64,000 nt of DNA, taken from the NCBI GenBank assembly GCA_010206265.1, contig VIQV01000023.1:124001-188000 (forward strand), in the 5' to 3' direction. How positions within the stretch are numbered: the stretch's first letter is position 1; each line of letters begins with the position of its first letter. The notes beneath the pieces are model-generated. The model searched no databases and was not told the origin of the DNA. It was given only the letters and a program-made list of their open reading frames with translations. The stretch is from Lachnospiraceae bacterium MD329. Its GTDB lineage: Bacteria > Bacillota > Clostridia > UBA1381. The translations under genes and the position numbers were made by a program. This document shows, piece by piece, positions 1-21,970 of the stretch.

Positions 1-189
1 CAGACCATATAAGGTTAAACCCGTTTTTTCAAAAGAATCACGCACTTTTTTTAGGGATTCGTAGTCAGACGGGTCATTTAAGCCTGTAATCTCCGGAGCT
101 GCTTTTGTAATTGCATATTTTATGCCTAACTGCGCGGCTAAATTCCATTGTGTACTCTCTTTTGCCGGCAGCATCATTGCCATTTTCAT
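1..189 (-). CDS. Mannonate dehydratase-like TIM-barrel protein (5' part only, runs off the window)
   Basis: The 63 visible codons begin MKMAMMLPAKESTQWNLAA and contain AITKAAPEITG. A GGAGG site sits about 10 bases before the ATG at 189. The N-terminus resembles TIM-barrel proteins annotated as mannonate dehydratase (COG1312-like), but it does not match the usual UxuA N-terminus, which starts with a tryptophan-rich RWYG-type strand. It follows the SDR mannonate oxidoreductase by 21 bases and uxaC lies just upstream, so dehydration of D-mannonate to 2-keto-3-deoxygluconate is the expected job. Function rests mainly on context, since the catalytic part lies outside the window. Confidence 0.6.
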   Translation of the reverse strand, partial: MKMAMMLPAKESTQWNLAAQLGIKYAITKAAPEITGLNDPSDYESLKKVRDSFEKTGLTLYGL

Positions 190-210: not shown

Positions 211-1056
211 TTATACTCCGCTGCGTGTCAGAAAACCACCGTCAACAGGAACGGTGATACCGCTGACAAATGCAGATTTTTCGTCATTTAATAGCCATTC
301 TGCTGTTCCAAGCAAATCATCTGCTTTGCCAAAACGTTCCATAGGAGTATGGTCAATAACGCTTTGTCCACGAGGTGAAAGACCTGTTTCGGGTGTGCCA
401 AGAAACTTTTCACTGCGTTCATTTGCAAAAAAACCTGGGGCAATCGCATTAACTCTTATTCCTGCAGGCGCAAGATACGCAGCAAGCCATTTTGTAAGGG
501 CCATAACCGCTGATTTGCTCATCGCATATGCAGGTACTTTAGTAAGCGGACAATAACTGTTCATCGACGCAAAATTTATAATTGAACCACCGCCGTTTTG
601 AGCCATCTGACGTCCAAAAATTCGAGATGGAATTACACTGCCTATAGTGTTTATTTTCAATACATCCTCAAAAGCATTCATATCAATATTAAAAAAGCCT
701 TTAAATTCTGTACTATTATCCAGCTCTAATTCTCCCTGCTCAAAGCATTTGTTTGTAGTCATAACCTTTCCGTTGTTTCCGCCTGCTCCGTTTACAAGAA
801 ATTTGCAAGGTCCAAAACGCTCGCCGATTTTTTTTGCAATTTCACACATTCTTTTTTCATCGGTAACATCACACGCCGCAATCATACTTTCTCCGCCAAA
901 ATCATCTATCACATTTTTTACAGCTTTGAGTTTTTCCTCAGTTCTGCCTATAAGTACAACACGAGCTCCTTTTCGAGCTAAATCAACTGCAATTGCAGAA
1001 CAAAGTGTACCGCCTGCGCCTGTTACTACAGCTGTTTTACCTTTAAAATAATCCAT
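211..1056 (-). CDS. uxuB: SDR-family D-mannonate oxidoreductase (fructuronate reductase)
   Basis: A 281-residue short-chain dehydrogenase. It has the NAD(P)-binding glycine motif TGAGGTLCSAIA near residues 12-23, an NGAG-type segment (LVNGAGG) near 88, and the catalytic Ser164, Tyr177 and Lys181 (AYAMSK). The C-terminal DGGF is typical of the family. The ATG at 1056 is preferred over an in-frame start at 1089 because GGAGG lies 6 bases before it and the 1089 start would overlap uxaC. Bacillus subtilis uses an SDR of this kind (YjmF/UxuB) to interconvert fructuronate and mannonate, and the position between uxaC and a mannonate dehydratase-like gene fits. Another sugar-acid dehydrogenase cannot be excluded. 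Cytoplasmic. Confidence 0.8.
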   Translation of the reverse strand: MDYFKGKTAVVTGAGGTLCSAIAVDLARKGARVVLIGRTEEKLKAVKNVIDDFGGESMIAACDVTDEKRMCEIAKKIGERFGPCKFLVNGAGGNNGKVMTTNKCFEQGELELDNSTEFKGFFNIDMNAFEDVLKINTIGSVIPSRIFGRQMAQNGGGSIINFASMNSYCPLTKVPAYAMSKSAVMALTKWLAAYLAPAGIRVNAIAPGFFANERSEKFLGTPETGLSPRGQSVIDHTPMERFGKADDLLGTAEWLLNDEKSAFVSGITVPVDGGFLTRSGV

Positions 1057-1057
1057 T

Positions 1058-2419
1058 TTATGCCTCCATTCCTGCAGCTGACGCCGCATTTAAATAACAT
1101 ATACGTTCAATCATTTCACCCAGAAAGTTAAGGTCTGCGTCAAATTCACCGCTTTTAACTTTTCTGCCAATCCATACGCATAATACACGTCTAAAATATT
1201 CGTGTCTGACAAACGATAAAATACTTCGTGAGTCAGTTGTCATTCCTATAAATTCATACAGCAATCCAAAAGAACTGATACTGTCCAGCATACCGTATAT
1301 TCCCTGATAATGGTCACACCACCACCAGGCAGGTCCCTGCTGAATTAACGCCGATACACCATCACGGCTATATGAGCCTTCCAGAATTGCTATTTCAGCA
1401 TTGCTGGCAGGATTCAATGTAAACAATATTGTTCTTGGAATGCCATTTTCACCGTGTTCAATATCATCCAAAAGCTGTGCAATATGTCGGGTATCCACCC
1501 TGCCTATTCCTGCAAAGCCTCCTGCCGCACCTACAGCATTTCTTAAGCGTGTGCTTGTATATCTCATTGCTCCGATATGAAGTTGCATAACCCAGCCTTG
1601 CAGTGCATATTCGTTTCCTGCTATTCTTAAAAGCTCGGAATTAAGATATGCCATATCCTCAACATTCAGTTCTTCTCCTTGAATAATTTTTTGCAACCTT
1701 TTATTATTGTTACCATCGTCGCACTTATAATAAAAATTATAGTCAAGCGCGTGGTCAGCGAAACGACAACCGGCAAGATGAAATACCTCACAACGTTTGT
1801 GTATTGCTTTTTTCAGACTGTCAAGAGAACTTATTTGAACACCTGTATTGTCTTCAAGTTCTCTTATAAATTCAGCTGTTATGTTATTCATATCATCACC
1901 GCGCAATGACGGAGAGTGTATTTTATTTTTCTCAAATTGAGATATATCACTGTTAATCGTCATACAAGGGGCGCAATACTCAATATTAAATCTTGACAGT
2001 ATGCTTTTTGAAGTGTATTCAGGAGTTTTTAGTTTTTTATTTAGGTCCTTCCACAATATGTCTGCATTTTCTGAATTTATAGGTATATCCAGATTAAAAA
2101 CCTGTGTAAGCTCCATTTTTGACCAATGATATAGTGGATTACCTATAAGTTTTGGAAATACAGAACACCATTTTTTAAACTTCTCAAAATCAGAGGCGTC
2201 CCCTGTAATATAGTGCTCCTCAACTCCACACATACGCATAGCGCGGTGCTTATACGGGTCAGACTTCAACCAAAGCTCTGTAATGTTTTCATATCTGTAG
2301 TCCTGCAATATTTCTTTTGCTGACAGATGGTTGTGGTAATCTATAATAGGTAATTGCTCTGCAAAATTCTTAAATAAATATTTAGATTCCTCAGTATCAA
2401 GTAAAAAATCACTGTTCAT
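1058..2419 (-). CDS. uxaC: Glucuronate isomerase (uronate isomerase)
   Basis: A 453-residue member of the UxaC amidohydrolase-fold family, close to the usual ~465 residues. The start MNSDFLLDTEESKYLF and the metal-site segment PIIDYHNHLSAKEI are characteristic. The C-terminal half keeps the QLHIGAMRYTSTR segment and the FVRHEYFRR end. It isomerises D-glucuronate to D-fructuronate and D-galacturonate to D-tagaturonate. GGAGG lies 8 bases before the ATG, and one base separates its stop from the start of the downstream SDR gene. It is 3 bases after the GH39 gene, so the products of the intracellular glycosidases are probably fed straight to it. Confidence 0.95.
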   Translation of the reverse strand: MNSDFLLDTEESKYLFKNFAEQLPIIDYHNHLSAKEILQDYRYENITELWLKSDPYKHRAMRMCGVEEHYITGDASDFEKFKKWCSVFPKLIGNPLYHWSKMELTQVFNLDIPINSENADILWKDLNKKLKTPEYTSKSILSRFNIEYCAPCMTINSDISQFEKNKIHSPSLRGDDMNNITAEFIRELEDNTGVQISSLDSLKKAIHKRCEVFHLAGCRFADHALDYNFYYKCDDGNNNKRLQKIIQGEELNVEDMAYLNSELLRIAGNEYALQGWVMQLHIGAMRYTSTRLRNAVGAAGGFAGIGRVDTRHIAQLLDDIEHGENGIPRTILFTLNPASNAEIAILEGSYSRDGVSALIQQGPAWWWCDHYQGIYGMLDSISSFGLLYEFIGMTTDSRSILSFVRHEYFRRVLCVWIGRKVKSGEFDADLNFLGEMIERICYLNAASAAGMEA

Positions 2420-2422
2420 TTA

Positions 2423-3883
2423 TTATTCCTCCCCGATAAACTCAATGAGCGTTACCCCACAGCTGCGTAAAGTTATATTTTCGTGATATTCGCCGTCTGT
2501 ATATATTTTCTCCTCAGATACGTCAAGCTTACCGCTATTTTTAATACTTTCCTTCATATCATTGTCCATTTCCTTAGGACTTCCTTCACTGAGCCATACA
2601 CTGTATGCATTGGAATGTGTATCATCTATTATATATCTTTTAACTGTATATCCACCGTTTAATCCTTTAATGGTAAGATTGATTTCCTTAGTTGCATTTT
2701 CAAGTGAATATAGTGCTATTACGAGATTCTGCTTTTCATTTATCGTTGCAATACAGTCACCGTCACATTCAAGCCAGTCATTTCCGAGATGTCCTGCAAG
2801 GCAATATCCGTTATATATTGGTTTTGAAAATCCGCTTAATGTGAAAAAGCTTCTGTATCCGTCAAAGTCATATGTTGATTTGTGCTGTCCTGACAAACAA
2901 ATAAGCATTTTATAAAGCTTATAGTCACTTTTGGCAATTAAATTTATTAATGCAAAGTAAAAAGCCGGAAAATATTCATTTTCACGAAAAATCATTTCAG
3001 GATTCTTTTTTACACTTAAAAAGCCTCCTGCGGCAGCGCCCCATTCGTCTAATATTATTTCTGTATCATATAATCCGCGTTCATCAAGCATACATCTGGC
3101 TGATTGAACTCTTTTCAATATGTTATTGGGATCAATTTTTCCGCTTGTATTGCTGTATTCAATATCAGAATAGGCGTGTATTGATAAAAAATCAAGATTA
3201 CTGCCGATATTATCAAGAAAGTCAGATATAAATTTATCGCTCATTGCCGCAGATGGTCCGCCTGCTTTTGCCTGAGGATATGCTTTTTTTACACCACTCC
3301 AAAAACTGTTATATAATTTTGTATATTCTGTAATTTTATCATTGTCCCCGTCCCGTTCATAATCAAAACAACTCTTAGATGTAACCCAGTATTCGTGGTC
3401 AGGCTCATTCCAGCAATGAAAACGCCATTGTGAAAGAGTGTTTTCTCCATATCTATTCAATAAATGCTCCGTATAACGAAAACAAACTTCTTCCCACAAA
3501 TCATAATCTGACGGAACAGAGTTATTGACCGTTTTCCCTTTATATCTCGGTATGCCCATATCTCGATTTGGAACGGACGCAATGCAATCAGGCATAAAAT
3601 TATAACAAATAAGAAGTGTAAAACCTTTTTCCACAAGATAATCAATACGTTTGTCATTAAGCTCAAAATCGTATACTAAATTACCCTTTTCATCTCTTGA
3701 CACAATATCTTCAAACATAGAGTACATTCTGACAAAACTTGCAGCTTTATCCTCTGCAATGCTGTTAAGTATATTCTGTCCCCATTTATCCTCTATCGCG
3801 TCTGTGGGATGAAAATGAATTGCATTATAAAAATTATTAATCTTTGTTCTTTTGCCTAACGCATTTATTTCTATATCTACCAT
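2423..3883 (-). CDS. GH39-type glycoside hydrolase, intracellular
   Basis: A 486-residue protein with a (beta/alpha)8 clan-A layout. WNEPD holds the likely acid/base Glu160, and IILDEWG holds the likely nucleophile Glu280. A C-terminal beta domain (about 370-486) follows, as in GH39. There is no signal peptide, so it acts on imported oligosaccharides. Known GH39 activities include beta-xylosidase and alpha-L-iduronidase, and the specificity here cannot be read from sequence. It overlaps the end of the GH88 gene by a few bases (ATGGTAG) and has a GGTGAGG ribosome site. The pairing with GH88 and uxaC suggests a uronic-acid-containing substrate. Confidence 0.8.
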   Translation of the reverse strand: MVDIEINALGKRTKINNFYNAIHFHPTDAIEDKWGQNILNSIAEDKAASFVRMYSMFEDIVSRDEKGNLVYDFELNDKRIDYLVEKGFTLLICYNFMPDCIASVPNRDMGIPRYKGKTVNNSVPSDYDLWEEVCFRYTEHLLNRYGENTLSQWRFHCWNEPDHEYWVTSKSCFDYERDGDNDKITEYTKLYNSFWSGVKKAYPQAKAGGPSAAMSDKFISDFLDNIGSNLDFLSIHAYSDIEYSNTSGKIDPNNILKRVQSARCMLDERGLYDTEIILDEWGAAAGGFLSVKKNPEMIFRENEYFPAFYFALINLIAKSDYKLYKMLICLSGQHKSTYDFDGYRSFFTLSGFSKPIYNGYCLAGHLGNDWLECDGDCIATINEKQNLVIALYSLENATKEINLTIKGLNGGYTVKRYIIDDTHSNAYSVWLSEGSPKEMDNDMKESIKNSGKLDVSEEKIYTDGEYHENITLRSCGVTLIEFIGEE

Positions 3884-5004
3884 AGCAAAACCTCACCGCC
3901 TTTCAGTTTGTATATAGCCTCTATAAAGTAATAGTCACCGTATATAAGCGGAAGATTTTGCAGTCCGTCGTGATATGCTTCACAGCCATTTAATGTTAAC
4001 GCGTCGCTATCATTACTCCAAATGCAATAGTCCTTTTCAACTGCCTTTAAAATCCGAATTGCCGTGTTAAAATACATCTGTTTTTCATTCTCCGGTACAA
4101 TTCGGGCAAGCTCCAAAAATCCACATGCGGCACACGTTCCGGCTGATGTATCGTGATATACAGGCATTTTAGGCGCGCGAAAATCGCATAGCGGAACTGC
4201 GTCATCTAAAAGGTTCGACATAAAATAATGAGCTGCACGTTTTGAAGCGTCAAGATATTCTTGTTTTCCTGTATGAATATAGCTAAGTACAAATCCGTAG
4301 ACTGCCCAAGCAGTACCGCGTGACCACGATGATGTTTTAGGGTCGTACCCTTGTGTCTTATTTGGAATTGTTACTTCACCGTTATCATCATAGTTTATAA
4401 TATGATATACTGAACCGTCAGGACGAAGATGATTTTTTAATGCTGAATCAGCGTGAGCTTCCGCAATAAGGCGAAATCTTGAATCCTCTGTAATTTCGGA
4501 GGCAAGGTACAGGAGCGGAAGATTCATCATACAGTCAATGATTGAAAAACCAATCCTATCCGCTCCGTTCCAAGCCCGAATATATCCCGCGTTTATATTA
4601 TAACGCGAGGAGAGAGAGAAAGCGGCGGTAAGTATTCTGTTTTCGGACAGCTTACCGCCGTGCAGCCGGTAATTTGCTCCGGCTGAAAGAAGCCATATAA
4701 ATCCCACATCGTGATTTAATGACTGACTGTCATATAACGCTTTATCAAGAATTTCCTCGTCGTATACAGCAATTTCTCTGTAACGTTCATCATTAGTCAT
4801 CATATACATAAGCCACATAACGCCTGCCCAAAATCCATTCGTCCAGCGTCCTATTTTTTCGTAACGCCAGTCATCGTGAACACCGTCAACTGCAGTATAC
4901 GGTATTTTTTCAGCAGAACGTTCACGCACATAACGCATTTTTTTATCGAGTTTTTCACTTATCTCGTCAATCCATTCCCTATGGGGCGCAATATATTTAT
5001 TCAT
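3877..5004 (-). CDS. GH88 unsaturated glucuronyl hydrolase
   Basis: A 375-residue (alpha/alpha)6-barrel protein. The GH88 landmarks are visible: NHDVGF with Asp99, SIIDCMMNLPLLYLA with Asp157 (the catalytic pair of the family), SSWSRGTAWAVYGF, and DTSAGTCAACGFLELA. Such enzymes remove the 4,5-unsaturated uronic acid that polysaccharide lyases leave on the non-reducing end. There is no signal peptide, so it works in the cytoplasm after uptake. The start overlaps the end of the upstream SLH gene by 8 bases, with an AGGAG site a rather long 13 bases away. Its presence implies that a lyase elsewhere generates the imported oligomers. Confidence 0.9.
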   Translation of the reverse strand: MNKYIAPHREWIDEISEKLDKKMRYVRERSAEKIPYTAVDGVHDDWRYEKIGRWTNGFWAGVMWLMYMMTNDERYREIAVYDEEILDKALYDSQSLNHDVGFIWLLSAGANYRLHGGKLSENRILTAAFSLSSRYNINAGYIRAWNGADRIGFSIIDCMMNLPLLYLASEITEDSRFRLIAEAHADSALKNHLRPDGSVYHIINYDDNGEVTIPNKTQGYDPKTSSWSRGTAWAVYGFVLSYIHTGKQEYLDASKRAAHYFMSNLLDDAVPLCDFRAPKMPVYHDTSAGTCAACGFLELARIVPENEKQMYFNTAIRILKAVEKDYCIWSNDSDALTLNGCEAYHDGLQNLPLIYGDYYFIEAIYKLKGGEVLLW

Positions 5005-8000
5005 AATGACTTACATTGCTCCTTTCCTGTACCATCATATATATTATTTTTGCCATTTCAGCTCTTGTAGCATAATTAAGAGGGTTAAAATTCCCGTTTT
5101 CATCGCCTGAAATAATATTTATACCGCTTAAACGCTGTACCGCATCAACTGCATAATCAGAAATTTTATCCGAATCATTAAACACTTTTATATTATCAGA
5201 CTGTTGTATATTGTTTAACACGCGTGAAATCATAACTGCCATATCCTGACGTGTTATTTTTTTATTTATTCCAAAACGGTCATTATCCATACCGCTTGCA
5301 ATACCGTTATTTACTGCTGAGGCTATATAAGGATAATACCACCTATCCTTTTCAACGTCAACAAATTCACAATCTCCTGACACGTCAAATTCAGCAGCCG
5401 TAATCAAGGTTTTGACAAATTCCTCACGCGTTACAAAATCATTAGGCGCAAACTCATATTCAGTTCTTCCGTCAACAATACCTTTTTCAAACAGTCCCTG
5501 TATATATTGTTTCGCCCAAGGCGCTTTTATAAGGTCCGTAAATTTCATTTCTTTTACAGAAGGAATTTCAGGTGTTGGGATAGGCGTTGGCGCTAAAGTC
5601 GGAATTGGTTTTTCCGTCACAGCAGGTTTTGTTTTAGGGATACTTCCACCGCCTCCGCCACCACCGCCGGAGGAAGAAGTACTTTCGCCTGTCCCTGCGA
5701 CATTTACCGTAAAACTACGCTCTGCCTGAGTGCCGTTTAAGCTCACAACTGCAGTTAATTTTACTCCCTTTGTTTTAGGCTGCCGTTTTACAACGGCATT
5801 ATATCCGCTGTTTGTTTTTGAAATTATTATTGTATTTGTATCTCCGAAAGTCCATTCTACTACCGCGTCTTTTACTCTATCCGAGAGTTTGAAATCAGTT
5901 GTAACACTTCCAGAAGGTATACCTGATAATTTCACAAAATCAGTATCATTTAAAATGTCCTCTGCTGTAGCCGTTGTCCAGCTGCCTGAATATGCTCCTG
6001 CCTCACATATACCTCCATAGCCTTCCGTATTAACTGATAGACGCAGATATGATGTATCAACAGGTGAAAAAGTTATTGAATTTATTCCTTCTGATACTAT
6101 ATTCTTGCTTGAAATAGGGCTCCAATTTGTTCCGTCGGCACTTGTGTATACATTGACTGATTTTATATTATCATAATTATATGGCACAAAGACAATACTT
6201 CCTATACTTCTTTGATTTGGAAATGAATAGTCAATATTAAAACTATTGTCTGACGCATAATATGTTAAAATATTATCATCATTTGTATTAGTCATACTAC
6301 TGTCATCACCTAAAATTTTAACACCGTATAAGTAATTTTCAGTGCTATCTCTCAAAACTAAGGCTTCAAACTGCTTTTCAGCTTGTTCAGCGCTGCCCTT
6401 TTTTATAACTGCGTTGAATTTAACAGGAATATCGGTTTTACTGTCACGCTTTAACACCTTATAACTATTTCCTGTTATTTCAATCACGTCTTTGGGCTCT
6501 GCTGTCCATTCCAGTTCTGCATTGTAAAAACCTTTTGGTAATGTGCCTTGTGTGGTTATTATATTTGAATCTAAAGTAAGATGATTTTTGTTAAAGCGTA
6601 CAGCCTCTTCATCTGAAACCTGCGGTAAAACTGTAACTGCAGTTTCAATTACAATTGGTTCTCCATCATAATCTTCTCGGCTTACAGTTGCTTTTAGGAT
6701 AACTTTAACATTATTTTCACCATATGCAGGTTGTTTTAGCAGTTTACCAGCGTTTGAGATATATTCCGATGTTTTGCCGTTTTCGTCCACCGCGTCCCAA
6801 ATAACTTTTACTCCGTAGAGGTCAGTATTTGGTAAAGATATATCGCTTGTTACGGCGCTTAATTCAGAACTCATATTATTTAATGACTGTCTGATTTTAT
6901 CTGCCGCGTTTCTTACTACTTGTTCCGCGTCTGTTATATGTTCAGAGTTATAAATTTTAAGCTGAGGCAGATATTTTTGAGCATTTCCATACATCATACA
7001 GTATGCTGTGCCCGTAGATTCTATTTCAAATCTGAATACAGGGTCGCCGTCAGCACTGTTAATGTATTCTGTCACGTCCCATTCAAGCCAATCCGACTGT
7101 GACGGATTTTGCTCATTTTCTACTGTGTATACTCCCTCGTCATCAATAATATTTTTTGAATCATTATATGTCATATCAGCAGTGCACTCCTCGAATAGAG
7201 CATAATTTACTGCTGTCATTTTAAGCTTAAACGCTCCCTGCATAAAATACGGTTTCATACGAAGAACTGCTTTGGGAGCATAGCCAAATGTACTGTCGTC
7301 AAACGGAAACCTTACAAATCCAATATATTTTGTACTGTCTTTACAATAGGCATATACGGTACTGTTTGGATTGGAGTTTTTTGAATTGCTCTGAACATAA
7401 TTTGTCAAAACAGGATTATATACTCCTTGCGGTAATATATACAATTTAAAACTTTTACTTTCTTTAACATCACCGTTTGATATTACGGCAGTAAGCGTAA
7501 CTTCCGCGTCACCGTGCTTTGACGATTGCGGCCGCCTTACATAAGCGTTATAAACATCACCTGCCTTTTCAAGGCTTACTACTGATTCAGTATCACTGCG
7601 CCATTCTATTTCACTTGCGTACCCTTCATTTCGTTCTGTGCCAATAACTGCCGGAAGTGAAAAATCCGAGGCTACCTGATGGCGTTTATCAATTTTTAAA
7701 TTCAAAACATCTTTTTTTGCATATCCCTTATGTCCTGAACTTACAGACAACATTGGAAGATTACTTTCACTTGTTGTCCCCTTTCCGTTATCCGCATATA
7801 CTCTGAAATAATCGTTGGGAGAATTAGCATTTGCTCCGCATATCAGAAATACAAATTCTGCGTCACTTCCTTCTTCTGTTAAGGCTGCTTGCTCCATAAC
7901 ATAATCAGTAACGTCAAATTCCAAATAATCAGAAGCTGAAGCATTTTCTAATGATATTGAATCAATCAGAGGGATGTCATCACTGCCTATAGCCTTTAAA

Positions 8001-8434
8001 ATACCAAGCTTATCTGCTGTTCCGTAATTCATCTGTCCATCCTGCCAAGAGGATTTCATATTGCTGTCACATATACAGTAAATCTCCATATCGGGTGCGC
8101 CAAGATTTTGACTTAAACGCACCCTTAATGTGATTTGATTTGCAGAAGTCAGCAGAGCCTGAGTGCTTTCACCCATATCTGCTCCATATCTAAAACGCAT
8201 TATCCCCATACGCAGTGCTGAGGCGCGTCCGTCTACAATCATTGTAGTTTCACTTGAATAGTCGTTTGTATTATAATTCCTTCTTATATATGTATCATAA
8301 TCGACAAAAAATGAAAAGTTTATTTCCGCGTCCGCTGACTGATTATCTGCATATACCATACCGCCAAACGACATTAAATACACAACTAAAGTGAATAGCG
8401 CCAGCGTGCGGTTTAAACATTTTTTACCGTACAT
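4997..8434 (-). CDS. SLH-anchored surface protein with DNRLRE/CBM96-like and atrophied-Ig modules
   Basis: 1145 residues. A signal peptide (1 to about 30, ending VYA) is followed by a DNRLRE/CBM96-like module (about 40-235, starting DTYIRRNYNTNDY), an atrophied-Ig module, a second CBM96-like module (about 340-495), two more Ig-like modules, a discoidin-like module (about 700-820), another Ig-like module, a polyglycine and Pro/Thr linker, and three SLH repeats at the C-terminus that should bind secondary wall polymer. No catalytic domain is recognisable. Strong AGGAGGTGAG site. It lies between the binding protein/permease genes and the GH88 gene, so a role as a cell-surface polysaccharide-capture scaffold is inferred. 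Module borders are approximate. Confidence 0.8.
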   Translation of the reverse strand: MYGKKCLNRTLALFTLVVYLMSFGGMVYADNQSADAEINFSFFVDYDTYIRRNYNTNDYSSETTMIVDGRASALRMGIMRFRYGADMGESTQALLTSANQITLRVRLSQNLGAPDMEIYCICDSNMKSSWQDGQMNYGTADKLGILKAIGSDDIPLIDSISLENASASDYLEFDVTDYVMEQAALTEEGSDAEFVFLICGANANSPNDYFRVYADNGKGTTSESNLPMLSVSSGHKGYAKKDVLNLKIDKRHQVASDFSLPAVIGTERNEGYASEIEWRSDTESVVSLEKAGDVYNAYVRRPQSSKHGDAEVTLTAVISNGDVKESKSFKLYILPQGVYNPVLTNYVQSNSKNSNPNSTVYAYCKDSTKYIGFVRFPFDDSTFGYAPKAVLRMKPYFMQGAFKLKMTAVNYALFEECTADMTYNDSKNIIDDEGVYTVENEQNPSQSDWLEWDVTEYINSADGDPVFRFEIESTGTAYCMMYGNAQKYLPQLKIYNSEHITDAEQVVRNAADKIRQSLNNMSSELSAVTSDISLPNTDLYGVKVIWDAVDENGKTSEYISNAGKLLKQPAYGENNVKVILKATVSREDYDGEPIVIETAVTVLPQVSDEEAVRFNKNHLTLDSNIITTQGTLPKGFYNAELEWTAEPKDVIEITGNSYKVLKRDSKTDIPVKFNAVIKKGSAEQAEKQFEALVLRDSTENYLYGVKILGDDSSMTNTNDDNILTYYASDNSFNIDYSFPNQRSIGSIVFVPYNYDNIKSVNVYTSADGTNWSPISSKNIVSEGINSITFSPVDTSYLRLSVNTEGYGGICEAGAYSGSWTTATAEDILNDTDFVKLSGIPSGSVTTDFKLSDRVKDAVVEWTFGDTNTIIISKTNSGYNAVVKRQPKTKGVKLTAVVSLNGTQAERSFTVNVAGTGESTSSSGGGGGGGGSIPKTKPAVTEKPIPTLAPTPIPTPEIPSVKEMKFTDLIKAPWAKQYIQGLFEKGIVDGRTEYEFAPNDFVTREEFVKTLITAAEFDVSGDCEFVDVEKDRWYYPYIASAVNNGIASGMDNDRFGINKKITRQDMAVMISRVLNNIQQSDNIKVFNDSDKISDYAVDAVQRLSGINIISGDENGNFNPLNYATRAEMAKIIYMMVQERSNVSHYE

Positions 8435-8460
8435 TCGGACTCACCTCCTATAAATTTTGA

Positions 8461-10437
8461 TTATTGTTCATTTACCTGCTTATATATCTTGTCAAACTCA
8501 TATGGTGTTAAATTATCGTCCCATATAAAGACTGCAACTGAACTCAGCTTTTCCTCGGGATTTACCGTTATATCTATATTTCCCGAATTCTTTAACTCCC
8601 ATATATGGAAGAAAACTCCGTCTGTGTTATACATTGCAATATACATTGTTTTTCCTGACGGAAATTCTGCGCTCGGCAGAGTTCCTGCCAAAATATGCTG
8701 TCCGTCTGTAAAACTGCTTATTTCTTCACCGCTGTCCTTATCTGCAAAGTATACAATAGATGACGCGATTGTAATTTCAAAATCTTTCGTTACTGAAACT
8801 TCGCCTTTTTCAATTGTAGCTGTCAAAGTTACTGTTGCAGGTTCTTCAACCTTTTGAGCAGTTGCATTAGCGCCATCAATTGCAATCAGGTCGCTTGTAC
8901 TGCTCCAGCTTATAGTTGTTTCGTTTTCACCTGCAATCGGAAGAATAAAATTGCCATATACCTTTTTTGCTATATCCAGTTTTTCAGCGGCGGCATTAAC
9001 GTCCTCTTCGTCATTTCCCGAAGGCGGAAGCGTAGGAGGAGTTTCGTTCTGCTGTACAACAAGCAACGGCGGATATGTTTCATTCTCACGTGAATAGAAA
9101 TATGCCTGAATTGATGGTCCAAACATACGGAAAGCGTATATTCCGTCCTTCTGCGATTTTACATAATCTGTTACGTCTATTGAAACATAGCGTGGGTCAT
9201 TTTCAGGTGCTGTATTTTCATCTGGTACCGCGTTTAATATGTCCTTATTTACAACCGTAGTACCAATCAAATCTCCTGTACCGTAGTTTGTATCAGCGTC
9301 TTTATTAAGTAATCCTAACTGTTCTCCGATTTGATAAGTAAATGTTTTCTCTCGCCACGATATTTTATCATTACCTGTAAGTCCCAGAACAGTAATACCA
9401 AAATTCCCTTCTTCTGTTAAAGCCTCCGGCTTTTTAATATCATACAAATACATTTTTAGATATACAGAATCATTTTCATTAACAACTAAATCAGGCTTGT
9501 TAAAACGCATAAAGTTCTGACGTCCGCTGCCATTTAAATAAATACAATGCTGTTCGTCAAAGTTTTTATCAGCATTTGCTGCCTGTGCATATGTATCTGC
9601 ATTGCTTGTTTCAGGGCTTGGCAGTGTTATAACAAAATCCTTCGTTACAGACTGTTCACCTACCGCAATTTCTGCAGTAAGTGTTACAGTCTTATCCTCC
9701 ACGCCTTCAGCAGGCAATGTTACTTTTGCGGATTCGCCTTCAATGGCAATAGCTGAGTCAGAAGATGACCAGCTTATTGGCATATCAAATTTTCCTATAA
9801 GAGGCAGAACAAAGTCTTTAGCGGCAACAGTTTTGATATTTATAGCACTAATCGCTGATTGAGCCTTTGCCGCGTCGCTATAATCAAAATTCAATGTAAA
9901 GTCTTTATATCTAAGCTGAGGATTTCCAGGTCCGATGAAATTAAATAAGTAATCTCCGTCTGTCTGTGATTTGATATAATCAGTTACATCAATAGATACT
10001 GCCTGTTTACCTTCGCCTGAAACCGAACCGATTAGATTTCCCGCGCTGAATATTGATGCATCATAAGTTGCTGTTGAGCCGTGAAGCTCTTTATTTTCTG
10101 CTATTCCATATATCTTTGTTGAAAAAGCTCCTTCTTCAAGGTAACTTTGTGACATATTCAGAGTTATTACAGGTGTATTTTCTATATATTCATCAACAGT
10201 ACCCTCAGTTACGCTAATTGAATCCTTACTGAATCGCACAAAGCCGTGAATTGAGCCGTAAGGGCGTATAACAGCATTTGCTGTGGTTGTGTATACACCG
10301 CTTTTAAGCGTTACAAACCAGCTGTCTGTCTTTTCAATTGATTTTGCGTCAGTATCTGCGAGTACAGGAATACTTATAATTCCTGATATTATAGACAGCG
10401 CCGCCAGTAAAGCTGTTGCTTTTTTTATAATTTTCAT
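8461..10437 (-). CDS. Exported protein with two CBM96-like and two atrophied-Ig modules
   Basis: 658 residues. A signal peptide ends near residue 28 (PVLA). Two CBM96/DNRLRE-like modules (about 35-190 and 285-465) are each followed by an atrophied-Ig module with the ISWSS motif (about 190-275 and 480-560). The C-terminal ~90 residues end in SSVAVFIWDDNL, a module also found at the end of the protein at 62031. There are no SLH repeats, no sortase motif and no recognisable catalytic site, so it is probably secreted or held by carbohydrate or protein contacts. It shares its module types with the SLH protein just downstream, suggesting duplication or a working pair. A polysaccharide-binding role is inferred. 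Confidence 0.75.
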   Translation of the reverse strand: MKIIKKATALLAALSIISGIISIPVLADTDAKSIEKTDSWFVTLKSGVYTTTANAVIRPYGSIHGFVRFSKDSISVTEGTVDEYIENTPVITLNMSQSYLEEGAFSTKIYGIAENKELHGSTATYDASIFSAGNLIGSVSGEGKQAVSIDVTDYIKSQTDGDYLFNFIGPGNPQLRYKDFTLNFDYSDAAKAQSAISAINIKTVAAKDFVLPLIGKFDMPISWSSSDSAIAIEGESAKVTLPAEGVEDKTVTLTAEIAVGEQSVTKDFVITLPSPETSNADTYAQAANADKNFDEQHCIYLNGSGRQNFMRFNKPDLVVNENDSVYLKMYLYDIKKPEALTEEGNFGITVLGLTGNDKISWREKTFTYQIGEQLGLLNKDADTNYGTGDLIGTTVVNKDILNAVPDENTAPENDPRYVSIDVTDYVKSQKDGIYAFRMFGPSIQAYFYSRENETYPPLLVVQQNETPPTLPPSGNDEEDVNAAAEKLDIAKKVYGNFILPIAGENETTISWSSTSDLIAIDGANATAQKVEEPATVTLTATIEKGEVSVTKDFEITIASSIVYFADKDSGEEISSFTDGQHILAGTLPSAEFPSGKTMYIAMYNTDGVFFHIWELKNSGNIDITVNPEEKLSSVAVFIWDDNLTPYEFDKIYKQVNEQ

Positions 10438-10502: not shown

Positions 10503-12116
10503 TTATTTTCCGATAGCTCGATTATATGCCTTCTGCATACTCTCCGTAACCTTGTCAATACCCATACTCTTTATTCTTTCAATCATTGTATCATAAGAAC
10601 TCATCGGTTCACGTCCGACAATGATTTTACTCTGCATTTCTGAAACATATGTGTTTATCTCATTTTTAAGGTTGTTTGCAAGCTCCAGTTCCTCCTGAGT
10701 ATATTTCAGTGTAGGCAGTGTTCTTGATGTGTTTCCTTCCTTCCATATATTGATTGCATTTTTCTGACTGCCTGTCATAAACTGGTTGAAATAGTGAATA
10801 CTCTGTTCCATTGCATAGTTGCCGGGAATTGCATATCTTGCCAGAGCCTCACCCATTGATAAGCCATTCGGATTAGCAGTTATTTCACTGCTGTAAACAG
10901 GCACACCATTGTCCAGATTATAGCTCTGTCCCTCTATTCCGAAATTAAACAGAAGGTGACCTTCTTCGCCATAAGCATAATCGCACCATTTTGCTGCAAG
11001 TTCAGGATTTTGACAATTAGGAGTAATTGCAATACCAATATTTATAACATTATCAATATACTTTGCAGGCATTGCGTAACCCTCTGAATTATTATCCTTT
11101 TTTAACCAAGGAACACCTACTATTGAAAAATCAGGATTTACAGATGACATTGCAGCTTCAAGTGTACCAAGAGTGCCTGCCGCTCTTCCGTACCATACAC
11201 CTGCCTGTTCATTAACTGCCTTTGACCTGAACTGTGTTGTGTCGCAGGTAAGATAATCTGCGTCAATAAGTCCTTCACTATACCACTTGGACATTGTTTC
11301 AAGAAATTCCTTGTACTCAGGCTGTACCCAACCGCATTTAACTTCACCGTTTTCCTGATAAAATGTATCAATACCAAACCAGTTCATTGCGTGGTCAGCA
11401 AACGGTAATTTTTTATCTGAAATAATAGGTATTTCATCCTGTTGTCCGTTTCCGTTAGGGTCCTGTTCTTTGAAGGCTTTTAAGACATTATACATATCTT
11501 CAACCGTTTGAGGAGTTTCTAAGTTCAGTTTGTCAAGCCAGTCTTGACGTATCTGGAATCCCTCAAAGACTCTTAGCTCTTCCTCAGGACGGATGAACGG
11601 ATAAAGATAAAGATGTTTATCAACATCTAACGCGTTATTAAGAATTGATGAATCATTCTTTAAAATGTTTAGAAAATTAGGGGAATTTTCCATTATCAGT
11701 TCGTCAAGCGGAATAATCTGACTGTCCATAGCGTACTTATAGGTTCCTCCAAGATTATCCCAGTTTGCAAGAATCATATCAGGCAATGTATTTGACGCAA
11801 ACATCAGGCTTAATTTTTCTTCCGATACAGTCTGATATTCAACTTCAACTCCCGTACGTCTTTCAAACTCCTTAAATGCCTCAATATCGCCAAGTCCGAA
11901 AGTCTGTCCTGCCGAGGTCACAGAAATTGTGGACGCCACTGTAAGTTTTACAGGCGTATCGCTTAACGGCAGCGTTACTTCCTGAGGATTAGCCGCTAAA
12001 AGCTTATTGACATCTCCCTCGCCTGCATTTTTACTGCCGCCTCCGCCGGAACAGCCTGTCATAGCGCTTACAAGCGCCGCGCATACTGCAATAGCAATAA
12101 CTTTTTTGATTTTCAT
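10503..12116 (-). CDS. Extracellular solute-binding lipoprotein of an oligosaccharide ABC importer (LplA-like)
   Basis: 537 residues. A lipoprotein signal peptide with lipobox SAMTGC puts the lipidated Cys at 22, followed by a Gly/Ser spacer. The rest is a family-1-like binding protein of the large LplA type used with LplB/YtcP permeases; internal landmarks are DPNGNGQQDEIP and the TPNCQNPELAAKWCDY segment. It would sit on the outer face of the membrane and deliver oligosaccharides to the two permeases encoded directly upstream. AAGGAGGT ribosome site. No ATPase gene is visible here, and in this family a shared MsmX-type ATPase usually serves. The substrate is unknown but probably uronic-acid oligomers, from the neighbouring GH88 and uxaC. 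Confidence 0.88.
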   Translation of the reverse strand: MKIKKVIAIAVCAALVSAMTGCSGGGGSKNAGEGDVNKLLAANPQEVTLPLSDTPVKLTVASTISVTSAGQTFGLGDIEAFKEFERRTGVEVEYQTVSEEKLSLMFASNTLPDMILANWDNLGGTYKYAMDSQIIPLDELIMENSPNFLNILKNDSSILNNALDVDKHLYLYPFIRPEEELRVFEGFQIRQDWLDKLNLETPQTVEDMYNVLKAFKEQDPNGNGQQDEIPIISDKKLPFADHAMNWFGIDTFYQENGEVKCGWVQPEYKEFLETMSKWYSEGLIDADYLTCDTTQFRSKAVNEQAGVWYGRAAGTLGTLEAAMSSVNPDFSIVGVPWLKKDNNSEGYAMPAKYIDNVINIGIAITPNCQNPELAAKWCDYAYGEEGHLLFNFGIEGQSYNLDNGVPVYSSEITANPNGLSMGEALARYAIPGNYAMEQSIHYFNQFMTGSQKNAINIWKEGNTSRTLPTLKYTQEELELANNLKNEINTYVSEMQSKIIVGREPMSSYDTMIERIKSMGIDKVTESMQKAYNRAIGK

Positions 12117-12152: not shown

Positions 12153-13100
12153 TTATCCCTTGACAGCGCCTACCATTACACCCTTGACAAAGAATCTTTG
12201 TACGAATGGGTAAACAAATAATATAGGCAATGTCGCAACTACTATAGTTGCATATTTTATACTTTCCGCAATAGGCATTTTATCAGCGGCAAAATCCTGC
12301 TGAGCTGCACTAACTTCATTAAGAATAAGTATTTCTCTCAGGAAAATCTGTATAGGATATTTTGAACGGTCTGAAAGATATATCATTTCATTAAACCACG
12401 AGTTCCAGTGAGTAACAGCATAATAAAGAGCAAGTACAGCAATAATCGGACCTGACAGCGGAACCATTATTTCAAACAGGATTCGTATTTCACCTGCTCC
12501 GTCTATTCGCGCCGATTCTTCAAGCGACGCAGGAATTGTTGAAAAATATGTTCTTGCCATAATAAGATTATAGGTATTTACTGCTGTAACAAGAATTATT
12601 CCCCATCGTGAATCAAGCAAATTAAGCCCTTTCATCAGCATATATAGCGGTATCATACCACCGCTAATAAACATTGTTAATGTCACATATAAATTAAGAA
12701 ATCTTTTTAATGCCAGTTTCTGTCTTGAAAGCACATACGCTCCTATTATTGTCAGAAACAAATTTAAAAGTGTACCGACAATTACATAAAATAGTGTGTT
12801 CATATATCCGCTAAATATTTCGTGGTTTGCAAATACCGACTTATATGCCTCCATCTGGAATCCTTTAGGCCAGACCATAAATCCTCCTGCTGCCGCAAGT
12901 GCCGTAGGGTCGCTGATTGAGGCGACTACACAATAGAAAATCGGATAAAAACATATCAACGCTACAAACAGCATTACAATAGTATTCACTGAATCAAATG
13001 CAATATCTAACGGCGTAAGCTTTCTTTTCATAGGCTTATCTTTATTTTTGCGTATGCCGCGCTGCGGTTTTATTTCCGCAGCCGTAAATTCTTTTTTCAT
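12153..13100 (-). CDS. ABC sugar transporter permease, YtcP/LplC type
   Basis: 315 residues with six predicted membrane segments after a basic N-terminal tail. The permease EAA-loop is clear (EESARIDGAGEIRILFEI). The C-terminus PFVQRFFVKGVMVGAVKG is the standard ending of the YtcP/LplC/MalG branch. It forms a heterodimer with the LplB-type permease encoded 21 bases upstream, and receives substrate from the lipoprotein encoded 36 bases downstream. The ribosome site AAGGAAGG precedes the ATG. Confidence 0.9.
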   Translation of the reverse strand: MKKEFTAAEIKPQRGIRKNKDKPMKRKLTPLDIAFDSVNTIVMLFVALICFYPIFYCVVASISDPTALAAAGGFMVWPKGFQMEAYKSVFANHEIFSGYMNTLFYVIVGTLLNLFLTIIGAYVLSRQKLALKRFLNLYVTLTMFISGGMIPLYMLMKGLNLLDSRWGIILVTAVNTYNLIMARTYFSTIPASLEESARIDGAGEIRILFEIMVPLSGPIIAVLALYYAVTHWNSWFNEMIYLSDRSKYPIQIFLREILILNEVSAAQQDFAADKMPIAESIKYATIVVATLPILFVYPFVQRFFVKGVMVGAVKG

Positions 13101-13121: not shown

Positions 13122-14078
13122 CTACCATAGACTTGTTTCATTGACACGGCGGCTGAACCAGTTTGCCGCGCATAGTATTATAAGATTTACCACCATATTA
13201 AACAGGTTTACAGCCGTTGAATATCCATAATCCGGATATGTTCCAAAACCGAGCTTATACACATATGACGAAATAACCTCTGATTTTGCCAATACCAAAT
13301 CATTTGACATCAGAATAATTTTTTCATAACCAACCGACATAACCTTTCCAAGCTGCATTATAAACAATACCGTAATAGTAGGCATAATTTCCGAAAGCGT
13401 GATATGCCACATTTTACGGAATCGTCCTGCCCCGTCTATTTCTGCTGCCTCATATAAATCCTGACTTATTCCGCTTATTGCTGCAAGATAAATAATTGAA
13501 CCCCAGCCCACTTGCTGCCATATTCCAGATATAACGTATATCGGAGTGAAATAGTTTTCCTCCATCATAAACGCTATACGTTCAAGTCCCATAGATGCAC
13601 GTATATTATTGAAAATGCCGTCACGTGCAAGGAAATCAGTTAAAAGACCGATTGCTACAACAAGCGATATAAAGTGCGGAAGATATGTTATAGTCTGTAC
13701 AGTCTTTTTAAAGAATGTATTACGCACTTCATTAAGTAAAATCGCAAGTATAATAGGCGCAGGAAAGTTAAAAGCAATTGAACACAAACTTATTCTTATT
13801 GTGTTCCACAAAATTCTGCCAAAATTATAGCTTGAAAAGAATTTTATAAAATTATCAAATCCTATCCAATCACTTCCGAAAATACCAAGCGCGGGTGAAT
13901 ATCTCTTAAATGCCAGTAATATACCCCCAAGCGGTATGTATGCAAATATAAGATAATACAGAAATACCGGTATGAATAAAAAGTACAACGCACGTTCTCT
14001 GTATATCTGGTTACCCAGTTTTTTAAAACGTCCGTCTGTACGTTTTAAAGCTGCCGTTTTTGTAGTTCGTTTGCGCAC
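13122..14078 (-). CDS. ABC sugar transporter permease, LplB type
   Basis: 318 residues. The N-terminal Arg/Lys-rich stretch is followed by six predicted membrane helices starting with YFLFIPVFLYYLIFAYIPLG. The EAA loop YEAAEIDGAGRFRKMWHI is present. The ending ANWFSRRVNETSLW is the conserved tail of LplB-type polysaccharide permeases. The start is GTG at 14078 with AAGGAGG 9 bases before it. It is the partner of the YtcP-type permease directly downstream. Cytoplasmic membrane, oligosaccharide import. Confidence 0.9.
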   Translation of the reverse strand: MRKRTTKTAALKRTDGRFKKLGNQIYRERALYFLFIPVFLYYLIFAYIPLGGILLAFKRYSPALGIFGSDWIGFDNFIKFFSSYNFGRILWNTIRISLCSIAFNFPAPIILAILLNEVRNTFFKKTVQTITYLPHFISLVVAIGLLTDFLARDGIFNNIRASMGLERIAFMMEENYFTPIYVISGIWQQVGWGSIIYLAAISGISQDLYEAAEIDGAGRFRKMWHITLSEIMPTITVLFIMQLGKVMSVGYEKIILMSNDLVLAKSEVISSYVYKLGFGTYPDYGYSTAVNLFNMVVNLIILCAANWFSRRVNETSLW

Positions 14079-14094: not shown

Positions 14095-16557
14095 CTAATT
14101 ATTGATTGTCACTATAAATTTAACATCGTCATTTTTAGAAAAAATGAAAGTGTTTGCCGTTCCGTATTCACCGGCAACTACAGAATCAATATTTCCTTTT
14201 TCAAATTTTTCAGCGTGTCTGTAATATTCAAAATAATTGCTGAAACCCTTGTTATCACTGTCAGGTACTTTTTCTTCCGAAACAGGTACGCAGCTTGTAA
14301 TTACCCTGCCGTCTATATTACATTTTATTTCATTTACAAGGTATTTCTTGAAGTTTGTCATAACGTCTTTATTAACTTCTGTTACAGATGAAAACAACTC
14401 TGTGTTCTTATAATCAGAATCGTCAAAATAAGCGTCGTTAAGCTCTGAAAAGTCCATAACCTGTCTTACAAGACCAATATCTCCGTTCCAGTTGCATACA
14501 AGCTCTATAACATCTCCGCTGCCAACCATAGACAATACATTAAACACACTTTGTCTGCTTGCAGCCATAAGAGTTACTCTTTCTCCGTCCATAAGTCCGT
14601 TTACTTCATATGTAGCTTCATCATCATCTGTAGTTGTCTGCCATACACTGTCAACAGCCATAAACTTAGATGATGAGCCAAAACCTGCCTCAACAGGCTT
14701 ATCGGGGTCAACCACTACAACTGCCGCCTGCACACGTCTAAGACGGTCGTCATAGCCGAAACCTTCTACCATATATTCTTCGTCGTTATCAAGCGCAAAG
14801 GTATTAAAATAGTCCTCTTTTTTGTTTGTGGAAGGTACGATAAATACCTTGCTTCTTCCTTTGTCACAAGCAAATGGAGTCAGTTTTTTATTTTCATAAT
14901 CCACAAAACCAAAATCATTTTCACAATAGGTTCTGTAACCTTTCGAGGCATAAGACTCTGCCAGTTCAACTACAGTCACATCACCTGCATTATTAAATTT
15001 CAGCGTAGCTACTGCACCTTCGCCAACTTCTGTACCGCCTGTTACTCTTACCCTATCCGAAAGACGATAGCTGTTAAACGTATTTCCGTCAAAAACTTCT
15101 ATATATTCGTTGTCACCACTGTCATCTGTATATTTTTGCCTTATGTATAAATAATTATCAAACTTTTTTCGTGCATAAAAGATTCTTCCCCATAAATCAG
15201 TGTAAAATGTACCCTCTGAACCCGTGATTAAGTCATATCTTCCGTCAATATACTGATACTTTTCAGAATTAACGCTTACCTCAGAATTTTTTTCATTCTT
15301 CGCAGACGCTGTACCGTCAAACGGAGGGTTTAGTCTGTATATGTTTACCTGCTCCATATTTTTGTCTGCTATGATTGAAATTGCGTCGCCTGATTTTATA
15401 TCATCAATGCTTATTTTTTCTCCGTCACTTCCGTAATATCTGCAAACAATATCAGCATTATCGGTTTGCAGTCTTTTTTTAGCATCTGTTCCGTATTCAA
15501 AGGCTATTTGCCCTTGTTTGGGATATACAGTTTCAACAACATAACTTTCTATATCTGTTATAACCGCAACGTCATACATATCGTCACCGTCGTTATCTAT
15601 CATCTTAACTCTAATGTCATCAGACAGCACTTCTTCCATTGTATCTATAGTAGGACGGTTGTTTAATACTACCTGTGGTGCGTCAGAAAGTTTTATTTTC
15701 TGATATCTGCTGCTTTCATCATTGCTGTAAAACAGCTTACCGTCTTCAATATACTTTTCCGTATTTTCATCAATATATACGGTACTGTTATCTCTGTGCA
15801 GTTCTATCCATTTAATAGTGTCTTCACTAACAAGAAATTTAACGTAACTGCCTATATATTCCGTAAGTTCATATTCACCAGTATTAAACTCGTCATTATT
15901 AATTCTAACCATTCCTTCTGCTGCACAATTTCCTATCAGCGCGCCTTCATCTGTAGCCTCAATAATTCCGATTTTATATTCTCCGTCATTCATTCCCAAC
16001 AGTATTTCTTCAAAAGTTTTACCAAACTTTCCGTCTGCACCGCAGGTTTGAACATCAAGTGCATTATGTATAATTGTATAAGCGTCAGAACGGGTTAATT
16101 TATCCTTATATCCTGTGTTTATCCCTTTATCCAGCTTTAACTCAATAGCCTGCTTATACCACGCCTCAAATGTGCTTGGAAGAACGTATCTGTAGCCAAG
16201 TGCAGCAGTTGTCATAGCCAACGCATATTCTGCCGTTACTTCTTTTTCAGGATCGACAGAATTGGAAAACGCCTTATACAGACCAATATTATCTGCTGTT
16301 CTTACATAACCGTCATACCAGTGTACTTCATTTTCCGTTGATATACCGCTGTCAGCAGCCATTGCGCGCAGTAACATTGCACTATATTCTGCAAATGTAA
16401 CAGTATTTTGAGTATCAACCTTTTCCGCTATTATTCCGAAATTCAGCATTTCTTCTTCAGGATTATCAGGCGATATCTTTGCTGATACTCCTGTAGCGCA
16501 TACAAGCAGTATAATAACTGTAAAAATTGCAGAAATCTTAAATTTCCTTTTCAGCAT
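14095..16557 (-). CDS. Large exported protein with N-terminal SLH-like repeats
   Basis: 820 residues with a signal peptide (1 to about 26, ending VSA). Residues about 30-180 look like degenerate S-layer homology repeats (TVTFAEYSAMLLRAM, then TAEYALAMTTAALGYRYV, then LTRSDAYTIIHNAL). The remaining ~640 residues are rich in short beta-strand patterns and acidic residues. I recognise no enzyme motif or named fold there. It is the second gene of the uronate operon, between the RraA-like gene and the permeases, with an AGGAGGG site. A cell-wall-bound role at the surface is likely; binding of polysaccharide is only inferred. Confidence 0.65.
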   Translation of the reverse strand: MLKRKFKISAIFTVIILLVCATGVSAKISPDNPEEEMLNFGIIAEKVDTQNTVTFAEYSAMLLRAMAADSGISTENEVHWYDGYVRTADNIGLYKAFSNSVDPEKEVTAEYALAMTTAALGYRYVLPSTFEAWYKQAIELKLDKGINTGYKDKLTRSDAYTIIHNALDVQTCGADGKFGKTFEEILLGMNDGEYKIGIIEATDEGALIGNCAAEGMVRINNDEFNTGEYELTEYIGSYVKFLVSEDTIKWIELHRDNSTVYIDENTEKYIEDGKLFYSNDESSRYQKIKLSDAPQVVLNNRPTIDTMEEVLSDDIRVKMIDNDGDDMYDVAVITDIESYVVETVYPKQGQIAFEYGTDAKKRLQTDNADIVCRYYGSDGEKISIDDIKSGDAISIIADKNMEQVNIYRLNPPFDGTASAKNEKNSEVSVNSEKYQYIDGRYDLITGSEGTFYTDLWGRIFYARKKFDNYLYIRQKYTDDSGDNEYIEVFDGNTFNSYRLSDRVRVTGGTEVGEGAVATLKFNNAGDVTVVELAESYASKGYRTYCENDFGFVDYENKKLTPFACDKGRSKVFIVPSTNKKEDYFNTFALDNDEEYMVEGFGYDDRLRRVQAAVVVVDPDKPVEAGFGSSSKFMAVDSVWQTTTDDDEATYEVNGLMDGERVTLMAASRQSVFNVLSMVGSGDVIELVCNWNGDIGLVRQVMDFSELNDAYFDDSDYKNTELFSSVTEVNKDVMTNFKKYLVNEIKCNIDGRVITSCVPVSEEKVPDSDNKGFSNYFEYYRHAEKFEKGNIDSVVAGEYGTANTFIFSKNDDVKFIVTINN

Positions 16558-17712: not shown

Positions 17713-17800
17713 GGAGAGGTGGCCGAGAGGTTGAAGGCGCAGCATTGGAAATGCTGTGATGTGAAAGCATCCGTGGGTTCGAATCCCATCCTTTCCTCCA
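17713..17800 (+). tRNA. tRNA-Ser (anticodon GGA)
   Basis: An 88-base class II tRNA. The acceptor stem GGAGAGG pairs with CCTTTCC (one G-U), the D-arm contains GGCCGAGAGGTTGAAGG, and the anticodon stem/loop gives TTGGAAA with anticodon GGA. A long variable arm (GATGTGAAAGCATC) is followed by the T-arm GTGGGTTCGAATCCCAT and an encoded CCA end. The discriminator base before CCA reads T, where serine tRNAs usually have G. A terminator hairpin follows immediately. Confidence 0.95.
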
Positions 17801-20324: not shown

Positions 20325-20385
20325 AATCATCACCATTCTTATTATACAACGTTGGATTCAAAAAATAAAGCGATTTTGTTAACAT

Positions 20386-20412
20386 TTAAGGTTTATGTAA
20401 GATTAAATTAAG
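20386..20412 (+). promoter_or_regulatory. 11-base-spaced direct repeats, candidate response-regulator operator
   Basis: TTAAG, GTAAG and TTAAG start at 20386, 20397 and 20408, one per helical turn. This is the usual arrangement for OmpR-family dimers. They lie in the 156-base region between the divergent regulator and ABC genes, just upstream of an AT-rich TATATGATATTATG stretch that could serve as -10. Confidence 0.5.
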
Positions 20413-20480
20413 TTTTCGGAAAGGTTTATATGATATTATGTGTATGTCACAAGATATTCATATTGAAAGGATTGATTAAA

Positions 20481-21967: not shown

Positions 21968-21970
21968 ACT

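Follow-up and report, generated by a model that had tools for sequence, protein, structure and literature searches.

The minus strand of a 64,000-nucleotide stretch of the Lachnospiraceae bacterium MD329 genome (contig VIQV01000023.1, positions 124,001 to 188,000; hereafter the window) carries 11 genes that form one tight operon, with gaps of -32 to +65 bp (Table 1). The order is RraA-like protein, SLHdeg, two permeases, binding protein, CBM96-free, SLH-CBM96, GH88, GH39, UxaC and UxuB-like protein, followed by a UxuA-like gene that runs past the window edge. This study concerns the two modular proteins designated SLH-CBM96 and CBM96-free and the system to which they may belong. A first-pass annotation had placed their genes between an importer and intracellular GH88 and GH39 enzymes, and the coordinates, strand and position given there were all correct. 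The MD329 genome is a draft in 86 contigs, about 91% complete.

Both proteins have hydrophobic signal-like N-termini (judged by eye), in agreement with their annotation as exported. In SLH-CBM96, Pfam curated cut-offs were exceeded by SLH in three stretches (107.4 bits), by four aBig_2 and two CBM96 domains and by F5_F8_type_C (35.4 bits, cut-off 28.2); the SLH stretches together with the signal-like N-terminus identify it as an SLH-anchored protein, as had been claimed. CBM96-free exceeded the cut-offs for two aBig_2 and two CBM96 domains and also carries a DNRLRE domain by NCBIfam. The CBM96 scores in the two proteins were 42.5 and 54.5 bits (cut-off 26). The description of both as built only from CBM96-like and atrophied-Ig modules fails for SLH-CBM96, which has the F5/8 type C (CBM32-like) module too; for CBM96-free it is right as to the recognised modules, and the C-terminal ~100 residues (window 8461-8760) are without assignment. 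These residues end in a motif that resembles, by eye, one in a GH95-pectinesterase protein. No catalytic domain was over cut-off in either protein in the Pfam and NCBIfam scans, and their description as non-catalytic stands on the point that the annotation had named as decisive. A profile of these CBM96 modules found as its best structure match 7vbo (E 6.9e-7), which is named alginate lyase and was taken as the CBM96 founder structure. The predicted structure of SLH-CBM96, obtained from two sequences, was poor (mean predicted local distance difference test score, pLDDT, 40.5).

The enzymes encoded next to these proteins are those of uronate metabolism. A uronate lyase would be expected to work with a GH88 enzyme, and the motifs around two aspartates, which we take to be catalytic, are conserved between the MD329 GH88 protein and the unsaturated glucuronyl hydrolase 1vd5. 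GH39 is nearest to beta-xylosidases (97 bits), and its N159-E160 and E280, presumably the catalytic residues, are identical in the three aligned sequences. This type of GH39 is scarce: at E<=1e-30 it was found in three of the 70 genomes of the family, MD329 among them. Since UxaC-, UxuB- and UxuA-like genes accompany it in all three genomes, its gene context suggests that it acts on glucuronate linkages. UxaC, UxuB and UxuA constitute the route from glucuronate to 2-keto-3-deoxygluconate (KDG), and the presence of UxaC with UxuB- and UxuA-like genes points to the use of saturated glucuronate as well.

A heparinase-type lyase on another contig

A Pfam CBM96 search of the whole MD329 genome gave seven matches at E<=1e-3, located in three open reading frames (ORFs): SLH-CBM96, CBM96-free and an ORF of 1842 residues that lies ~136-142 kb into the 264-kb contig C34. 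The latter, called the lyase from here on, contains three CBM96 domains, Hepar_II_III_N and Hepar_II_III_C, and three SLH stretches. Close to it, a 2126-residue ORF has GH95 and pectinesterase domains (L009:114-6494, also on C34). A profile of 18 lyase sequences was compared with solved structures, and heparinase III came out on top (4mmi, 242 bits; 5jmd, 221; 4fnv, 136), followed by the heparinase II/III-like 8khv (50 bits), the DNRLRE protein 8wab (43, via the CBM96 part), the alginate lyase 4nei (42) and heparinase II (28). Asn399, Tyr453, His576, His578 and His619 are kept in all 18 aligned sequences. We assume that these residues are catalytic and that PL12 is the number of the heparinase III relatives; as the comparison covers families with solved structures only, the lyase can be called PL12-like at most.

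An orthologous operon, split over two contigs, was present in G009, a genome from the same family but a different genus. Its order is RraA, SLHdeg, LplB, YtcP, solute-binding protein, lyase, CBM96-free (split by the contig end), SLH-CBM96, GH88, GH39, UxaC, UxuB and UxuA. The lyase orthologue, of 1835 residues, thus sits directly between the solute-binding protein and CBM96-free, and it shares 72-73% identity with the MD329 lyase in the catalytic region. SLH-CBM96 is 57% identical to its G009 copy over nearly the whole length, and CBM96-free 48% to the copy broken by the contig end. Restriction of the system to one strain was rejected on the presence of these orthologous proteins and of the operon in G009. 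As the lyase orthologue lies inside the G009 operon, the operon in the window has lost, or never had, a linked lyase. The window is best described, from its gene content, as the putative holding-and-import half of a lyase system, and the lyase function would be available in trans if C34 and the operon contig belong to one organism. The surface set had been annotated as a non-catalytic group inside a uronate import operon. It is indeed encoded with an importer and uronate enzymes, but MD329 encodes a surface enzyme as well; the idea of a surface system wholly free of enzymes was rejected, since an SLH lyase with CBM96 modules was found in MD329 and inside the G009 operon.

Table 1. Features of the operon and its surroundings and members of the SLHdeg family in MD329. 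Coordinates are those of the window unless a locus (L) or contig (C) is given.
Feature	Coordinates	Strand	Evidence
RraA-like protein, first gene of the operon	16579..17478	-	Pfam RraA-like 59.2 bits; G009 operon-head gene 87% identical
SLHdeg, exported; degenerate N-terminal SLH region and ~600-residue body, fold not recognised	14095..16557	-	Own Pfam scan: nothing over cut-off; family profile matches SLH
LplB-type ABC permease	13122..14078	-	BPD_transp_1 58.8 bits
YtcP-type ABC permease	12153..13100	-	BPD_transp_1 29 bits, cut-off 26.4
Solute-binding protein of the importer	10503..12116	-	SBP_bac_1 57.8 bits
CBM96-free: exported, 658 residues, 2 CBM96, 2 aBig_2, C-terminus without assigned domain; anchor not found	8461..10437	-	Pfam, NCBIfam
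SLH-CBM96: 1145 residues, non-catalytic, 2 CBM96, 4 aBig_2, 1 F5/8 type C, glycine-rich linker, 3 SLH	4997..8434	-	Pfam; G009 copy
GH88 unsaturated glucuronyl hydrolase homologue, signal peptide not seen	3877..5004	-	196 bits to 1vd5
GH39 enzyme, signal peptide not seen	2423..3883	-	Pfam GH39 107.5 bits
UxaC glucuronate isomerase	1058..2419	-	Pfam 440 bits; NCBIfam 390.8, cut-off 387
UxuB-like D-mannonate oxidoreductase (SDR family)	211..1089	-	NCBIfam PRK08277 321.8 bits, cut-off 281
UxuA-like mannonate dehydratase, gene start; continues beyond the window (L008:17233-18189)	1..189	-	Named by reading the sequence; G009 copy 75% identical
AraC-type regulator, beyond the UxuA-like gene, convergent	L008:16344-17210		Named by reading the sequence
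SLHdeg family members of MD329 (G000)	14095-16557; C15:19642, C12:208509, C1:278694, C13:17394, C78:72751, C45:158022, C23:199682, C23:236115		

The permease names LplB and YtcP in Table 1 are those we take to apply. The AraC-type regulator is 52% identical to an AraC ORF that is cut by a contig end and runs divergently from the G009 operon, and such a gene adjoins the operon in both genomes. Among the operon genes, conservation with G009 is highest for the RraA-like one, in a genome where KduI was not found. Upstream, ORFs at 18308-22702, named by reading, look like a minus-strand two-component pair and a plus-strand ABC transporter; between them and the operon start lies a plus-strand tRNA-Ser(gga) gene (window 17713-17800).

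Recurrence around lyase genes and the SLHdeg family

A scan of 391 genomes sampled from the class, scoring no more than two candidates in each, detected the lyase core in 31. All 49 rows outside MD329, which correspond to 48 stretches and not to every lyase of those genomes, were taken as the sample; 18 of the 48 are shorter than 15 kb and cut by contig ends, and L076 and L085 are short contigs. The 20 control stretches were chosen by the authors, unseen, on contigs with an SLHdeg or lyase match elsewhere, and one of them (L173) has both an SLHdeg protein and an SLH ORF. SLHdeg was encoded in 20/48 lyase stretches and 1/20 controls, and a companion, meaning an SLH or aBig_2 ORF distinct from both the lyase and SLHdeg, in 25/48 and 4/20, respectively. 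The excess of LplB/YtcP permeases near the lyase was not significant (9/48 versus 1/20 controls, one-sided Fisher 0.14), and GH88 was present in four of the 48 stretches. When the lyase ORF carries SLH, SLHdeg was nearby in 16 of 26 stretches, against 4 of 22 when it does not. The SLHdeg comparison is circular in part, since the model was partly built from 11 of the 48 stretches, those that BLAST with the window protein alone had picked up (11 of the 16 of the first fetch). Over the 32 stretches outside the first fetch SLHdeg was found in 8, versus 1/20 controls (one-sided Fisher 0.065), and in 7 of the 13 among them where the lyase ORF has SLH (one-sided Fisher 0.003); the genomes are related and the Fisher tests are not independent.

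The full gene set recurs in G009, across the two contigs, and L098, L102, L144 and L146 each have SLHdeg and a non-catalytic companion alongside the lyase and a permease, with GH88 also in L098 and L144. Recurrence outside the strain, on which the first-pass annotation had made its proposal depend, was thus observed. A Pfam scan of the full set of 30 companion ORFs placed a recognised catalytic domain over cut-off in none, F5/8 type C in 12 and CBM96 in one; a small custom CBM96 model adds two more with CBM96. The companion in L152 has a Laminin_G_3 lectin/glucanase-superfamily domain over cut-off, with 3keto-disac_hyd below threshold. These ORFs keep long stretches without annotation, and some of their frames are cut by contig ends.

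The companions bear on the idea that the two CBM96 proteins are lyase copies in decay, functionless and reduced to the module frame after loss of the catalytic core. The N-terminal half of the lyase holds the same CBM96 and aBig_2 modules and is detectably similar to the G009 SLH-CBM96 (23% identity, 59 bits). Nonetheless, both genes are full open frames in MD329 and are conserved with G009 at the identities given above, the contig-split copy of CBM96-free included, and separate SLH/aBig_2 ORFs are commoner in lyase stretches than in controls. We consider decay of this kind very improbable.

The upstream protein that had been annotated as a third, SLH-like surface protein, SLHdeg, has no Pfam SLH match of its own at E up to 1; its SLH-like character is seen in the family. 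Of 14 aligned members, eight matched SLH and four the SLH-type NCBIfam model NF033190, and two further Pfam families gave a single-member match apiece at E of about 0.01. The profile matches, in columns 29-178, the solved SLH domains of the S-layer protein Sap and of the surface-layer glycoprotein 6cwc. The solved-structure matches of the profile are confined to this SLH part, and the structure predicted from the single sequence was poor (mean pLDDT 32).

The family is strongly multiplied. MD329 has 66 matches to the SLHdeg profile in all, and dozens of stretches match its SLH part. At E<=1e-40, nine family genomes contained 9, 10, 3, 16, 10, 22, 40, 17 and 9 matches, at least 136 in all and some of them partial; the best 104 candidates were scored per genome, and the counts for the richest genomes are lower bounds. 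At E<=1e-60, a match was present in 102 of the 391 class genomes. In six genomes, 20 of 58 SLHdeg matches lay within 10 kb of an LplB-type permease, where permease number and genome size would predict no more than 4.3, and 19 of the 35 permeases had an SLHdeg match within 10 kb. Of the SLHdeg matches, 0/9 in G035, one of the six genomes, and 3/9 in MD329 were this close to a permease. In MD329, one paralogue (L118, C12:199500-219400) is encoded with two SLH/aBig_2 proteins, an importer, GH28, GH43 and an altronate dehydratase-type gene. This is a second locus with the same layout, ~60 kb from the operon. Another (L120) occurs with an SLH protein, an importer, GH36, GH3 and GH1, and a third (L121) with SLH proteins and a binding protein. 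Two more (L117, L119) lie among SLH ORFs and glycosidase-type genes, with permease absent within the stretch, and three (L122-L124) among genes that read, by eye, like housekeeping genes. From these neighbourhoods and the proximity to permeases, the SLHdeg family is therefore associated with sugar-uptake loci, and not only with those. A broader idea is that SLHdeg is the general, multiplied core of S-layer-based glycan capture in Clostridia, a wall-bound counterpart of the SusC/D expansion in which every locus would have one paralogue plus a dedicated non-catalytic SLH/aBig_2 binder, an SLH enzyme and an ABC importer, and cutting at the wall would be coupled to import. We put this forward tentatively and with some doubt.

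Proposed mechanism and alternative readings

Taken together, the sequence data make it probable that the operon serves the utilization of a glucuronate-containing acidic polysaccharide by a Gram-positive cell, with a surface lyase acting in trans and the CBM96 proteins holding the polymer. The SLH-anchored lyase, which would have to be expressed together with the operon, would cut the polymer outside the cell by beta-elimination. SLH-CBM96 and CBM96-free, which share CBM96 and aBig_2 modules with it, would retain the polymer and the products of its cleavage at the wall, with SLHdeg as a possible additional surface partner. The ABC importer would then bring in oligosaccharides, cytosolic GH88 would take off the unsaturated end residue, GH39 would cut further, and the UxaC, UxuB-like and UxuA-like enzymes would convert glucuronate to KDG. 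Alginate, suggested by the name of the CBM family, was rejected as the substrate: the lyase profile is far nearer to heparinase III, the lysines of the founder are mostly lost by eye, and the operon encodes a glucuronate route.

Several observations weigh against this proposal. The MD329 lyase is on a separate contig from the operon in a draft assembly of 86 contigs. SLH-CBM96, searched without its SLH end, was full length in only 2 of 95 genomes of the order and partial in a third; the same query found one contig of genome_contigs, from G009. KduI, which would bear on the use of the unsaturated residue, was not found in the ~91% complete MD329 genome. All four CBM96 modules are acidic as a whole (isoelectric points 4.2-4.9). 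The alginate-binding founder has six basic residues in its groove, as given in the part of PMC9971899 consulted, and about two of them are retained, by eye, in the first CBM96 copy. Polyanion binding by these modules is therefore not a given.

The same loss of groove lysines would also fit a reading in which the CBM96/DNRLRE modules are structural spacers and the sugar is bound by the F5/8 type C module or by SLHdeg. The greater frequency of F5/8 type C than of CBM96 among the companion ORFs at Pfam cut-offs agrees with such a role. On the other side are the best match of the CBM96 module profile, which is 7vbo, and the retention of two CBM96 copies in each protein, and we regard the spacer role as unlikely, if worth keeping in mind. 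Alternatively, the two proteins could serve the attachment of the cell to a matrix such as mucus or plant fibre, as adhesins or ornaments of the S-layer, their place in the operon reflecting shared regulation only and not feeding. Their recognised modules are all non-catalytic and SLH display is general in MD329, as would suit adhesins. However, both are internal genes of a tight importer-enzyme operon, a position kept in G009, and the other CBM96 matches of the genome are confined to the lyase; we judge attachment as their sole role to be distinctly unlikely. Holding of the polymer for the lyase and the importer is the reading we prefer.

Comparison with described systems

The first-pass annotation knew of no described system with this exact layout, yet the layout has precedents in Paenibacillus sp. 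JDR-2 (PMC4765114) and in the named Gram-positive polysaccharide utilization loci (gpPULs; PMC5320581), each consulted in part. Neither the SLHdeg family nor this exact layout was found described among the best-matching open-access articles, judged by title and abstract opening.

The gpPULs of Roseburia/Eubacterium rectale combine a degrading enzyme, a transport system and a regulator (PMC5320581, in the text available). The operon in the window fits this kind with one exception. Its two BPD_transp_1 permeases and the SBP_bac_1 protein make up a carbohydrate transport system, and the AraC-type ORF, named by reading, supplies a regulator beside the operon in both genomes. The polysaccharide-degrading enzyme is the exception: the lyase is in the operon in G009 and unlinked, on the other contig, in MD329, and oligosaccharides are the expected substrates of the GH88 and GH39 homologues. 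A further difference is that the quoted definition is without dedicated non-catalytic wall-anchored proteins (PMC5320581), of which the MD329 operon has two to three as internal genes.

Paenibacillus sp. JDR-2 is the nearest described case in the literature consulted. There, the distal gene of the surface-anchored Xyn10A1 is coordinately regulated with an aldouronate cluster of intracellular hydrolases and a transporter, so that, as in MD329, a surface-anchored depolymerase is encoded apart from the cluster with the transporter and the intracellular glucuronic-acid enzymes; the SLH table for this strain also includes an SLH 'alginate lyase/heparinase' and SLH proteins with Ig-like modules (PMC4765114, in the portion consulted). 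The JDR-2 enzyme is a hydrolase acting on xylan and the MD329 enzyme a lyase, and separate SLH-CBM proteins within the JDR-2 cluster are not described in that portion. The same text calls the retention of surface-hydrolysis products by the Gram-positive cell unidentified for the xylan system. The separate wall-anchored modular proteins described here, together with the multiplied and unnamed SLHdeg family, which is commoner near lyases and importers than in controls, are concrete candidates for this retention. The layout may link cutting at the wall to import, and the candidate holding proteins are open to module-by-module expression and testing.

The Dp0100 alginate lyase of Defluviitalea phaphyphila, the CBM96 founder, resembles the MD329 system in combining CBM96, F5/8 type C (CBM32) and heparinase II/III modules at the surface, but it does so in a single polypeptide and on alginate, whereas the MD329 binding modules are also on separate proteins and its lyase is nearest to heparinase III (PMC9971899, as far as the text available goes). 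SusE/SusF of Bacteroides and Sas20 of Ruminococcus bromii are likewise non-catalytic surface glycan binders that serve separate enzymes; they are lipoproteins or amylosome proteins for starch, and the likeness drawn is one of role (PMC9112005, consulted in part). No SusC/SusD pair was found among the 11 operon genes of the window in the Pfam and NCBIfam scans, which leaves the works-like analogy with Bacteroidetes loci unaffected. The layout is thus a variant within the known gpPUL kind, and the SLHdeg family offers a broader, less certain idea.

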